Shown piece after piece: positions 29,051 through 53,123 of a stretch of 64,000 nucleotides of DNA. The position numbers and the translations under genes were made by a program. This DNA comes from Elephas maximus indicus (lineage: Eukaryota > Chordata > Mammalia > Proboscidea > Elephantidae), in assembly GCF_024166365.1 (NCBI RefSeq), contig NC_064820.1:148448001-148512000 (forward strand), read 5' to 3'. The number at the start of each line of letters is the position of its first letter. Position 1 is the first letter of the stretch. Under the pieces are notes generated by a model. That model made no database searches, was not told where the DNA came from, and worked only from the letters and a program-made list of their open reading frames with translations.

Positions 29051-29094
29051 GTGCAGCCAGTGTCATTGTTGGCCACCCTCTGGACACAGTCAAG
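29051..29094 (+). CDS. SLC25A48: SLC25A48 coding exon 2 (44 nt)
   Basis: Short internal exon preceded by a CCACAG acceptor and followed by a GTACAG donor. It completes the split Gly codon and encodes AASVIVGHPLDTVK (residues 17-30). This is the end of helix 1 and the first part of the carrier signature Px[DE]xx[KR]x[KR]: P25, D27 and K30 are here, and R32 is supplied by exon 3. These residues form the matrix salt-bridge network in the carrier family (family knowledge). Entry phase is 1 and exit phase is 0, both consistent with the neighbouring exons. The exon is only 44 nt, its donor departs from the GTRAGT consensus, and a 35-bp minisatellite starts about 105 nt downstream, so its inclusion may be variable (inference). 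Confidence 0.93.
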
Positions 29095-29200
29095 GTACAG
29101 TACCACATTGTCCATTGCCTCTTAGAAAGGGGCCTGCCTCCAGGAATGCACCTGCTGTTTCTCGTCCCCCAGAGAGTCTCCAGCCCAGACAGGCTTTCTG

Positions 29201-29410
29201 TGGCCAGCCCATGGAGGTCAGGGTGCGAGGAGGTGTGGCCAGCCCATGGAGGTCAGGGTGCGAGGAGGTGTGGCCAGCCCATGGAGGTCAGGGTGCGAGG
29301 GGGTGTGGCCAGCCCATGGAGGTCAGGGTGCGAGGGGGTGTGGCCAGCCCATGGAGGTCAGGGTGCGAGGAGGTGTGGCCAGCCCATGGAGGTCAGGGTG
29401 CGAGGGGGCC
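29201..29410. repeat. 35-bp minisatellite, six copies
   Basis: Six 35-bp units start at 29201, 29236, 29271, 29306, 29341 and 29376, each beginning TGGCCAGCCCATGGAGGTCA. Units differ mainly at one A/G site (A in copies 1, 2 and 5; G in 3, 4 and 6). It lies 106 bases downstream of SLC25A48 exon 2. Confidence 0.97.
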
Positions 29411-38787: not shown

Positions 38788-38859
38788 ACTCGCCTGCAGG
38801 CCGGCGTGGGCTATGGGAACACACTCAGCTGCATCCGCATGGTGTACAGGAGGGAGAGT
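38788..38859 (+). CDS. SLC25A48: SLC25A48 coding exon 3 (72 nt)
   Basis: Symmetric phase 0/0 exon with a pyrimidine-rich acceptor ending TCCGCAG and a strong GTAAGT donor. It encodes 24 residues (31-54), beginning TRLQAGVGYGNTLSC and ending YRRES. It supplies R32 of the first carrier signature followed by LQ, and then the matrix loop of the first repeat. Because it is 72 nt and in phase 0 at both ends, skipping it would keep the frame but delete half of the signature. It lies 9.7 kb downstream of exon 2, across an intron rich in L1 and RTE insertions. There are no in-frame stops and the residues match my memory of the mammalian protein closely. Confidence 0.93.
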
Positions 38860-39373
38860 GTAAGTGCCCCCTGGGCAGGTATGAGTGCCAGCCGCCAAGG
38901 CACCCCACAGACGGCCAAGTCCAGGCCTGCGCCGGGGCCAGAGCCTTCACACCAACATGTCAGCCAGAGGTCTTCTCTTCCCCTACCATACTCGGCTTTT
39001 GTTTCCCTGCTCATTGCACACCACACTTCCAATATTACACATTACCTGAACTTATCCCTGTCACCTAGTGCAACAGTATTAGGGGAAAAATGGTTTTATG
39101 TAAACTTTCTGGGAAGTTCTGAGGAATTTAGAACCACAGTGTGGAAAATTCCTGCAAAAACAGGGCGACCTGTCAGTTTTTCAAAACTGAATGAGTGGCT
39201 AGTAAACTGTGAGCTCACAGGCTTCCCTTTATCTGGGTGGTCAGGCTGGCTGAAGCCAGCACTTCCCATCCTAGTTGCCACCTGGACAGCTGGCTTGCTC
39301 TACAGGTGACCAGGGGACCCAAGGCTCCTCTGCTCAAAGGGGAAAAAAACAAAAAACAGAATACTATTTTGCA
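38860..39373. other. Intron 3, unique DNA after exon 3
   Basis: Unique. The frame stays open in one reading past the donor for about 150 codons (38746-39309), but the GTAAGT donor and known gene structure argue against read-through. Confidence 0.5.
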
Positions 39374-39586
39374 GGAGTCCCTGGGGGATGGGGGTACAAA
39401 CAGTTAACGTGCTTGTCTGCTAACCAAAAGGCTGGAGGTTCGAGTTCACCCAGAGGCAACTTGGAATAAAGACCTGATGATCTACTTTCAAAAAAATCAG
39501 ACCTTGAAAACCCTATTGAACACAGTTCTACTCTGACACACATGGGGTCTCCATAAGTCAGAATCTGTTTGACGGCAACAGGTTAT
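39374..39586 (+). mobile_element. AfroSINE-related SINE, diverged variant
   Basis: GGAGTCCCTGGGGGATGGGG head, GGAGGTTCGAGTTCACCC B-box, and tail GGGGTCTCCATAAGTCAGAA ending GACGGCAACAGG. Confidence 0.88.
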
Positions 39587-40603
39587 GGGTCTATTTTGCA
39601 GAAGATGTATCAGGTCCCTTTCTTGAGAATTAGAGTGTGCTTCAGGAAGACTTCTTAAGGCTCCTCTTTTGGGAATTTAAAATAATTGTTAAAATATTGG
39701 ATAAAATGGAGGCAGAGCCAAGATGGTGGAACAGTCGGATGCTTCCCTCGAGCCCTCTTTACAACAAAGACCCAATAAAACAAGTGAAACGAGTATATTT
39801 ATGACAAGCTAGGAGCACTGAGCATCAAAGGCAAGCTTAGAAAACAGAGGGGCAGTGGGAGGAAGAGACGGTTCAGAACAGGAGAGGAGTTACCGGACCT
39901 GAATTGAGGGGAGCCCTCAGGGACCATTCCCAGGAGCAGTGGCTGGCTGGTACTTGCATTTGGCAGCAGTTTCCTCAGGGAGAAGCAGCCAGCCACATGG
40001 CCTACTCACAGCTCCAGAACCAGAGAAGAACGGTGCTCTCGGCAAAACCTAAGTACTTCCATGTATTTTACCGTGCCTCCCCACCCCTCAAGCCAGCTTC
40101 AGCAGCTGAATTCCCTGGGCCTGAGATAAGCACCTAGAGCCATCGTCCCGGCCTTGGAGAAGGAAAAAATTTGCAACTGGGGGAAAAGATTATTTGCCAG
40201 CTCCACTAACCAGGGGAGCTCAGGACAGAAGCGGCTCCTGTCCAGGCATAAACCATCCATGGACCTTAAGCATCTTTCCCTTCTGCATGGACCTGTGTGG
40301 GCCTATTTCAGAGAATAGGCCCTTGTTGGCAGACTCCAACCATTTCAGCTGTGAGGTGGAGAGGTGGGTGTTTGATGTTTGACATTGCTTTGCTTATTAA
40401 ACAGGGTCCTCACCTTCCCACACCAGGGTCCTAAGGACTGGTAGTTCCACTCAGGTCACCAGCCACCCACGACAGAGGTCCAAGGATAATTGGTACCTCC
40501 CAGTCCTTACAACCAAAAACATTGGGTGCCCATGGTCTGTCTGCAGAACCGACCCACCTGCACCCTGTAGGGACACCCAGGGGGTCAGTTCTCAGCCCCC
40601 TGC

Positions 40604-40878
40604 CTTGTTCACAGTGTGACCCCCTGCTGCAATCAGATACCGGTACGTACACCAATCACCTCTGCCCCTCTAAGACTGTAGGACAGAGCCTGTACCACAC
40701 ACTTGATGATCAGCTACCTGGACACCTGAGCTGAATTCATACAAGAAAATTGATGGACTCCCAGACGGATATACCTGATAACAGCTCTAGCCATCTGGGG
40801 ACAAGACGTCAGAGCTCCAAAGGTGAAAATAATCAAGCTAGCTCACTTAAGGAACCCATTTGGGCATATCAAAACAAA
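40604..40878 (+). repeat. Inverted repeat, left arm (275 bp)
   Basis: Lies in the L1 5'UTR just before ORF1. Its reverse complement is at 41364-41638, same length, with three differences found by eye, all transitions (about 99% identity). The spacer is 485 bases. This copy is in the normal L1 position. Confidence 0.95.
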
Positions 40879-40935
40879 GCAAAGCAAGAAGCTATGACAC
40901 AGTAAGCAAGCATAAACTAATACAATAACTTATAG

Positions 40936-42100
40936 ATGGCTTGGAGACAACAGTCAATATCAAGTCACGTAAAGAAACAGACCATGATCACTTCAACAAG
41001 CTCTCAAAACAAAGAATCCAGGGATCTTCTAGATGAAAGTGCATTCCTGGAATTACCAGAGGCAGAATACAAAAGATTAATATACAGAACCCTTCAAGAC
41101 ATCAGGAAGGAAATGAGGCAATATGCAGAACAAGCCAAAGAACATGCAGATAAAGCAACTGAAGAAATAAGAAAGGTAATTCAGGAACATAATGAAAAAT
41201 TTAATAAGCTGGAAAAATCTGTAGACAGATAAAAAAAAGAAATTCAGAAGATTAACAATAAATTTACAGAAGTAGACAACTGAGCAAGTAGAAGCCAGAA
41301 TTTCTGAATTTGAAGATAAATCACTTGGCACTAATATATTTGAAGAAAAATCAGATAAAAGAATTTGTTTTGATATGCCCAAATGGGTTCCTTGAGTGAG
41401 CTAGCTTGATTATTTTCACCTTTGGAGCTCTGACGTCTTGTCCCCAGATGGCTAGAGCTGTTATCAGGTATATCCGTCTGGGAGTCCATCAATTTTCTTG
41501 TATGAATTCAGCTCAAGTGTCCAGGTAGCTGATCATCAAGTGTGTGGTACAGGCTCTGTCCTACAGTCTTAGAGGGGCAGAGGTGATTGGTGTATGTACC
41601 GGTATCTGATTGCAGCAGGGGGTCACACTGTGAACAAGAAACCTTAAGAATCATGTGGGACTCTATCAAGAGAAACAGCCTATGAGTGATTGGAGTACCA
41701 GAACAGGGAGGGATAACAGAAAATACAGACAGAATTGTTGAAGATTTGTTGGCAGAAAACTTTCCTCATATTGTGAAAGATGAGAAGATATCTATCCAAG
41801 ATGCTCATCAAATTCCACATAAGGTAGATGTTAAAAGAAACTCACCAAGACATATTATAATCAAACTTGCCAAAACCAAAGATAAAGAGAGAATTTTAAG
41901 AGCAGCTAGGGATAAATGCAAAGTCACCTACAAAGGAGAGCCAATAAGAATAAGCTCAGACTACTCGGCAGAAACCATGCAGGCAAGAAGGCGATGAGAT
42001 GACTTATTTAAAAAATGGAAAGAAAAAAATTGCCAGCCAAGAATCATATATCCAGCAAAACTGTCTCTTAAATATGAAGGTGAAATTAGAACATTTCCAG
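40936..42100 (+). pseudogene. L1 ORF1 remnant, split by the inverted duplication
   Basis: ORF1p is the RNA-binding trimeric chaperone of L1 retrotransposition. The N-terminal part starts MAWRQQSISSHVKKQTM at 40936 and leads into the coiled coil to a stop at 41230. After the inverted arm, the RNA-binding part resumes (DSIKRNSL, a TGA where Arg is expected, then VIGVPEQGG, 41650-41720) and runs through PRHIIIKLAKTKDKERILRA. The TGA probably arose from a CpG CGA codon. The protein cannot be made. Confidence 0.9.
41364..41638 (-). repeat. Inverted repeat, right arm (275 bp)
   Basis: Reverse-complement copy of 40604-40878 placed inside ORF1, replacing the segment between the coiled coil and the RNA-recognition part. 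Normal L1 ORF1 text resumes at about 41641. Confidence 0.95.
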
Positions 42101-42599
42101 GTAAACAGAAGTTTAGGGAATTCGTAAAAACCAAACCAAAACTACAAGAAATACTAAAGGGAATTCTTTGGTTAGAAAATCAATAATATCAGGTATGAAC
42201 CCAAGACTAGAACACTGGGCAGGGCAATCAGAAATCACCCCAGACAGGGAAATAAAAAAAACAAAGCAAGGTTAAAAAAAAAAAGCTCAAAACAGGGTAA
42301 CAGCAATGTTATTATATAAAAGAAGACAACATTAAAATAATAAAGAGGGACTAATAAATGTAATCATAGATCTTCCATATGGAGAGGAAGATACGGCAAT
42401 ACAAAGAAATAAAAATTAGTTTGAAATTTAGAAAAATAGGGGTATTAATAAGGTAACCACAAAGGAGACAAACTATCCTACTCATCAAAATAAAATACAA
42501 GAAAAAAATAGAGACTCAGCAGAAAGAAAATCAACAACAACGAATATGAGGAAAGGACAATATATAACCTACTCAGCACAAAAAGTCAAGTGGGAAAAA

Positions 42600-45530: not shown

Positions 45531-47235
45531 AAACTTTTTAGCTATGACACTTCCAATCAGCACCTGATCTTTAAAATCTACATGATACTGCAAAAAGACA
45601 AGTGACCCAATTAAAAAATGGGCAAAAGATATGGACAGACACTTCACTACAGAAGACATTCAGGTAGTTAACAGATTCATGAGGAAATGCTCATGATCCT
45701 TAGCCTTTAGAGAAATGCAAATCAAAACTACAATGAGGTTTCATCTCACTCCAACTAGTTTAGCGTTAATCCAAAAAACACAAAACAATAAATGTTGGAG
45801 AGGCTGTGGAGAGATTGGAACACTTATACACTGCTGATGGGAATGTAAAATGGTACAACCACTTTGGACATTGATTTGGCGCTTCCTTAAAAAGCTACAA
45901 ATAGAACTACCATACGACCCAGCAATCCCATTCCTTGGAATATATCCTAGAGAAATAAGAGCCTTTACATGAACAGATGTATGCACACCCATGTTCATTG
46001 CAGCACTGTTTACAATAGCAAAAAGATGGAAGCAACCAAGGTGCCCATCAATGGATGAATGGATAAATAAATTATGGTATATTCACACAATGGAATACTA
46101 TGCATCAATAAAGAGCAGTGATGAATCTGTGAAACATTTCATAACATGGAGGAACCTGGAAGGCATTATGCTGAGTGAAATTAGTCAGTTGCAAAAGGAC
46201 AAATATTGTATAAGACCACTATTATAAGAACTCAAGGAATAAACAGAAGAAAATATTCTTTCATGGTTACAAGAGAGGGGAGGGCGGGAGAGGGGTATTC
46301 ACTAATTAGATATTACATAAGAACTACTTTAGGTGATGGGAAAGACAACACACAATACAAGAGAGGTCAGCACAACTGGACTAAACCAAAAGCAAAGAAG
46401 TTTCCTTAATAAACTGAATGCTTCGAAGGCCAGCGTAGCAGGAGCAGGAATTTGGGGACCATGGTTTCAGGGGACATCTAAGTCAATTGGCATAATAAAA
46501 TCTATTAAGAAAACATTATGCATCCCACCTTGGAGAGAGGCATCTGGAGTCTTAAACGCTAGCAAGAGGCCATCTGAGATGCATCAATTGGTCTCAACCC
46601 ACCTGGATCAAAGGAGAATGAAGAACACCAAGGACACAATGTAATTACGAACCCAAGAGACAGAAAACCCAGACACAGAAAGAGCCGCATAAAACAGAGA
46701 TAACATCAGCCTGAGACCAGAAGAGCTAGACGGTGCCCTGCTGCAACTAATGACTGCCCTGATAGGGAACACAACAGAGAACCCCTGAGGGAGCAGGAGA
46801 GCAGTGGGATGCAGACTCCAAATTCTCATAAAAAGACCAGACTTAATGATCTGGCTGAGATTGGAAGTACCCCGGTGGTTACGGCGCCCAGACCTTCTGT
46901 TGGCCCAGGACAGGTACCATTCCCAAAGGCAACTCTTCAGACATGGATTGGACTGGACAATGGGTTGGAGAGGGATGCTGGTGAGGAGTGAGCTTCTTGG
47001 ATCAGGTGGACACTTGAGACTATGTTGGCATCTCCTACCTGGAGGGGAGATGAGAGGGTAGAGGGGATTAGAAGCTGGTGAAATGGACACGAAAAGAGAG
47101 AGTGGAGGGAGGGATCGGGGTATCTCATTAGGGAGAGAGCAATTGGGAGTATGTAGCAAGGTGTATATAAGTTTTTGTGTGAGAGAATGACTTGATTTGT
47201 AAACTTTCACTTAAAGCACAATAAAAAAAAAAAAA

Positions 47236-52864: not shown

Positions 52865-53123
52865 GTGTTTGGCTTCTTCAAGGGCATGTCCTTCCCCCTC
52901 GCCAGCATCGCCGTCTACAACTCGGTGGTGTTTGGGGTCTTCAGTAACACACAGAGGTTCCTTAGCCAGCGCCGCTGCAGGGAGCTCGAGGCCAGCCCCT
53001 CCCACACCCTGTCTGACCTGCTCCTGGCCAGCATGGTGGCCGGCGTGGTCTCCGTTGGGCTGGGCGGGCCCGTGGACCTCATCAAGATCCGTCTGCAGAT
53101 GCAAACACAGCCCTTTCGAGAAG
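52865..53123 (+). CDS. SLC25A48: SLC25A48 coding exon 4 (259 nt)
   Basis: Largest exon in the window, with acceptor CCCACAG and donor GTAAGA. It encodes residues 55-140 and the first base of codon 141 (exit phase 1). It starts VFGFFKGMSFPLASIAVYNS, the second helix of carrier repeat 1, and passes through a short polar linker rich in Arg, Glu and Ser (roughly residues 88-105). It then gives helix 3, ending in GGPVDLIKIRLQMQTQ, which is the second carrier signature (P123, D125, K128, R130). Residue 55 is Val where I recall Met in human, a conservative change. The frame is open throughout. The next exon should begin by completing an Ala codon; I do not find it before the window ends, so this is the last coding piece visible. 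Confidence 0.94.

Follow-up and report, generated by a model that had tools for sequence, protein, structure and literature searches.

How did an L1 in the intron of a mitochondrial-carrier gene come to hold a segment of its own 5'UTR twice, once in place and once inverted within ORF1? The arrangement lies in a stretch of 64,000 nt from Elephas maximus indicus, referred to here as the window. An initial annotation, made from the letters alone, had proposed a fairly recent template switch or palindromic repair, had set aside the twin priming usual for inverted L1s, and had named an assembly artefact as a further option. The features of the locus are listed in Table 1.

Table 1. Coordinates of the inverted repeat, the L1 that carries it and the surrounding gene.
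Feature	Position	Strand	Remarks
Stretch analysed (window)	C2:148448001-148512000		64,000 nt, Elephas maximus indicus
Further carrier-gene exon	about 29051-29092	+	Ends read by eye
Upstream exon, host gene (SLC25A48-like)	38788..38859	+	Open frame between AG and GT; 24 aa, no Pfam match
Host L1	39709..47235	+	5' end near 39709 from relatives; 3' end taken as A-run 47223-47235
Left arm	40604..40878	+	Resident copy (donor), L1 5'UTR
Spacer	40879..41363	+	5'UTR end, possible ORF1 start (ATG 40936), 5' part of ORF1
Right arm	41364..41638	-	Inverted copy within ORF1; TTT and AAG at ends common with target
L1 ORF1 remainder after insertion	41686..42186	+	RBD-like and dsRBD-like domains, stop between
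Downstream exon, host gene	52865..53122	+	Mito_carr (Pfam) E 9.4e-11; ends read by eye

Geometry of the Inverted Repeat

Direct comparison showed that the arms are reverse-complementary over 275 of 275 nt, free of gaps, around a spacer of 485 nt, exactly as the initial annotation had described them. They differ by three transitions, which in left-arm numbering lie at 40647 (G/A), 40726 (C/T) and 40848 (T/C). The complementarity breaks off immediately at both the outer and the inner ends. The arms were the sole inverted pair reported between 38000 and 48000 (seed 12, length 25), and they topped the four inverted pairs less than 5 kb apart in a self-comparison of the whole window (E 1e-10). Thus, the pair is far beyond chance.

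The locus was compared with 57 L1 loci from the same genome, which represent the best-scoring copies rather than a random sample. With the arm as query, 40 of 6090 candidates were scored and gave 38 other places, 28 of them retrieved for the set; with the spacer as query, 40 of 3495 candidates were scored, and 29 of the 39 other places were retrieved. In 56 of the 57 best-scoring relatives, more than 80% of the left arm could be aligned, in agreement with its normal place in the L1 5'UTR. The right arm splits ORF1 at a point ahead of the RBD-like domain (PF02994, frame 41686-41997), also as proposed.

The Host L1 and Its Surroundings

The L1 lies in sense orientation between the second and third of three + strand exons. 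The closest PDB chains to the product of the downstream exon are uncoupling proteins. The initial annotation had placed the L1 in sense in intron 3 of SLC25A48. The orientation and the mitochondrial-carrier exons on the + strand are borne out, whereas the gene name, which we take to be SLC25A48, and the number of the intron are provisional assignments that fit the exons. Just downstream of the first exon there is a 35-bp minisatellite (29199-29405; 5.9 copies, 98% match), and a stretch near 39361-39600 is presumably a SINE of the Afrotherian type, which it resembles.

The remainder of ORF1 consists of two separate open stretches, matching PF02994 (E 5.1e-21) and PF17490 (E 1.9e-17), and pieces of the endonuclease and reverse transcriptase were recognized by Pfam downstream of these domains. 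When its three frames were aligned with LINE-1 ORF2p chains, ORF2 had 10 clear in-frame stops (counted by eye) and several frameshifts, and roughly 65 codons were missing internally. Judged by its reading frames, the host L1 is long dead. Its 3' part is 87-89% identical to 39 other genomic places scored (the best 39 of 10175 first-look candidates), and the spacer is 85-91% identical to 39 other L1 places scored (the best of 3495 candidates). A search for a target-site duplication of the host L1 yielded nothing beyond one 9-nt exact word, and an Rfam search gave no match at gathering score. Near 41281, about 26 nt of ORF1 that most relatives carry are missing from the window L1; a gap of at least 6 nt relative to the window is absent there from 3 of the 57 best-scoring relatives.

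The spacer had been said to contain the start of ORF1. The ATG at 40753, in the left arm, is an unlikely start, since the relatives have in-frame stops at 40903 (54 of 57) and 40918 (56 of 57). The next in-frame ATG past those stops, at 40936, is located in the spacer and is a possible start of ORF1, with a frame length that varies widely among the relatives, themselves decayed; the claim is therefore retained for a candidate ATG rather than for an established start.

The frame that opens at 40753 closes after three codons in 43 of the 57 best-scoring relatives. A T-to-C change at 40762, present in both arms and in one of the 57 best-scoring relatives, removes this stop, and 40753-40905 in the window is an open upstream frame of 50 codons within the L1 5'UTR.

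The Empty Site and the Junctions

The right arm is absent from the paralogous L1 copies of this genome, which were taken to represent the ancestral state. The empty site was read in the first 28 loci fetched, 24 of which were readable on both sides. It holds only 15-17 nt in 20 of the 24, and 5, 12, 19 and 32 nt in the remaining four. In L005, a relative placed close to the window sequence in both trees described below, the site reads AGAA-TTT-TTAAAAAATG-AAG-AAACC, and its counterpart in the window is AGAA-TTT-[copy]-AAG-AAACC. At the corresponding two ends, the donor strand bears TTT and AAG.

When the 24 sites were read by eye, the AGAA-like end was followed by TTT in 11 relatives and by only TT in nine, and the first junction match was therefore counted as 2-3 nt (TT/TTT). 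The empty site ends in AAG in 19 of the 24 (also by eye), and the match at the other junction is these 3 nt. About 9-10 nt of the target were lost.

Template and Uniqueness of the Copy

Six substitutions are common to both arms, each of them found in at most five of the 57 best-scoring relatives, and both arms have a 1-nt deletion that is absent from all 56 readable relatives (one was unreadable at this position). A tree was calculated from 58 sequences, comprising both arms and 56 relatives, with one relative dropped for gaps. The split that unites the left and right arms had a bootstrap of 100, with a stem of 0.0237 and tips of 0.0077 and 0.0036. The rare substitutions, the private deletion and the bootstrap support demonstrate, at the level of sequence comparison, that this L1 itself served as the template.

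Artefacts of the library or the assembly can take the form of inverted repeats, in this case a fold-back chimera. However, the arms differ at three sites, and by the majority of the relatives the left arm has the derived state at 40647 and 40848 and the right arm at 40726. (The polarity at 40647 is given with reservation, as the 57 relatives have A in 42, C in 12, T in one and gaps in two.) Furthermore, the sequence rejoins the original template with bases lost, and the contig spans 236.6 Mb. An artefact is thus very unlikely, and the inverted copy probably is none; the caveat of the initial annotation is weakened by the arm differences and by the return to the template with lost bases, and keeps a small residual weight.

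The initial annotation had suggested a search for other L1 copies with this arrangement (a source subfamily) as opposed to this locus only. The genome (3.40 Gb, 64 contigs) was searched with junction patterns of 27-32 nt at up to three mismatches (one pattern had one mistyped letter, and counts of repeats are lower bounds). Each junction pattern gave a single match, the window itself, and the control pattern gave none in either junction search. No internal inverted repeat comparable to that in the window was found in any of the 57 fetched relatives; four had other inverted hits of at least 40 nt, which were self-overlapping except for a 47-nt pair (79%) in L027. These results strongly indicate that the inverted arrangement is specific to this locus as far as searched. 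A strongly diverged copy could escape a threshold of three mismatches over such patterns, but none was found, and we consider a source subfamily exceedingly improbable.

Timing of the Copying Event

The arms have diverged by 3/275, or 1.1% (95% interval 0.2-3.2%), compared to a terminal branch of 0.055 (5.5%) for the remainder of the L1's 5' half in a tree of 54 sequences, for which 53 of the 57 relatives were kept. The length of this branch is uncertain because its neighbour in the tree, L026, is itself on a long branch (0.34). The 10 stops in ORF2 correspond to a divergence of 6.5% (unweighted) or 8.4% (transition-weighted), although some of these stops might predate the L1 insertion.

For arms as old as the insertion, the expected number of differences is 16.5 at 3% per copy (P for three or fewer, 6e-5) and 27.5 at 5% per copy (P 4e-9). 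Private substitutions were scored, as a milder measure, at columns with at least 90% agreement among the relatives. Their rates were 3.1% in the 5'UTR and 2.8% downstream, against 2.8% and 2.4% for the left and right arms, respectively, and 1.4% for the spacer. The downstream rate leads to a P of 1.5e-4, and P is 1.5e-4 or less for the 5'UTR and downstream rates alike. However, the spacer rate, the lowest, predicts 7.7 differences (P 0.05), which weakens the timing. With an arm divergence of 1.1% against a terminal branch of 5.5%, copying most likely took place well after the insertion of the L1, unless arm-to-arm gene conversion erased differences and thereby rejuvenated an older event. The description of the event as fairly recent thus holds.

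These numbers also bear on an origin during retrotransposition itself, either by template switching of the reverse transcriptase or by a variant of twin priming, in which case the arms would be alike by conversion or by chance. Template switching has been proposed for the L1 reverse transcriptase (PMC13174262). A source element carrying the private changes would also explain their presence in both arms, and at the spacer rate the three differences fall only marginally short of expectation (P 0.05). The divergence of the arms is nevertheless well below both the terminal branch and the values derived from the stops, and the 5'UTR and downstream rates speak against arms of the same age as the L1. 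Twin priming inverts the 5' segment of an L1 at insertion without duplicating it internally, whereas here the left arm stays in place and is also copied, so that the earlier rejection of twin priming stands. Overall, we regard an origin during retrotransposition as unlikely.

A Model for the Event

A local template switch, in the course of either DNA replication or break repair, very probably produced the copy after the L1 had inserted. The fixed points of the model are the donor copy, the local template, the junction matches and the lost bases, all of which can be read from the alignments. The growing strand would have quit its template in ORF1, after ...AAAAGAATTT, and used the 2-3-nt match to re-prime about 485 nt back, on the reverse strand of the 5'UTR. 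About 270 nt would then have been copied in reverse, and the original template rejoined through the 3-nt match AAG, about 9-10 nt beyond the point of departure. In four-point notation, and in the ancestral order, this would be a 3-2-1-4 event, for which the nascent strand would merely have to fold back on itself. The polymerase step and the identity of the moving strand are inferred, and the mirror event on the opposite strand would be equally consistent.

A template switch would cover all of the features described above, namely the inverted copy, the kept donor, the small skip on return, the lack of a second locus and the late date. The reading proposed initially holds, with private changes in both arms, short matches at both junctions and lost target bases, even though junction matches as short as 2-3 nt could have arisen by chance. 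The explanation requires no function, there is no sign of one, and the event is an ordinary kind of small mutation.

Predicted Hairpin

The arms are predicted to pair end to end, with an MFE of -636.9 kcal/mol over 1035 nt, and a 275-bp stem could form from a transcript of either strand. In the + strand stem, two of the three arm differences would pair as G-U and the third would be a C-A mismatch. The long duplex that would make the transcript a candidate target for A-to-I editing, as the initial annotation had suggested, is a prediction from this fold. Other inverted pairs in the window are longer but less alike; for example, 328-1607 (antisense L1 3' end) could pair with 45935-47234 (sense L1 3' end) over 1306 columns at 84%. 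The 275-bp hairpin is therefore one of several sequences in the region that could form a duplex, and among them its arms are the closest together and the best matched. That a late mutation gave the carrier-gene intron a near-perfect 275-bp hairpin that is edited, altering splicing or level in this species, appears highly improbable.

Comparison with Known Systems

Short-range template switches (PMC7954356, PMC8794818) likewise involve a reverse-complement copy of nearby sequence and a return to the original strand, and 3-2-1-4, which gives one inverted repeat, is one of the two majority patterns in the four-point model (PMC7954356). The elephant copy is much longer, however: the gold-standard set from great apes has a median of 12 and a maximum of 128, a point against the template-switch model. 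Fold-back inverted duplications that enclose a disomic spacer (PMC3907307) share the inverted copy, the single-copy spacer and short inverted matches at the boundaries, but are large and have dicentric intermediates. Templated insertions, in which patches come from distant regions (PMC5110952), fit worse than a local copy. The L1 twin-priming inversions named in PMC12350158 resemble the present case in having inverted L1 sequence inside an L1. The elephant L1 differs from the inversion-only outcome of twin priming in that the segment is duplicated and the donor kept.

The second copy in the elephant L1 reverse-complements a nearby segment that stays put, as in a local inverted duplication. Because the L1 relatives supply the ancestral state, the donor, the junction matches and the relative age can be read, making this a clean single case of a short inverted duplication. 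The inverted copy is real in this assembly, mechanistically clear and ordinary. It is one further example of a kind of mutation that is common, and it illustrates that an intron can acquire a long hairpin in a single step; the view of L1 biology is unchanged. In the human long-read study (PMC12350158), 277 inverted duplications were found outside mobile-element insertions, with a median of 284 bp, and most showed microhomology of 1-15 bp, which was taken there as a sign of a replicative origin. Compared by size and microhomology, the elephant copy is alike, with 275 bp and matches of 2-3 and 3 nt that fall in this range (TTT and AAG against L005), although it comes from another mammal, lies within an L1 and is known from one assembly. 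By this analogy, it is of the same kind as the human germline inverted duplications, a common class.
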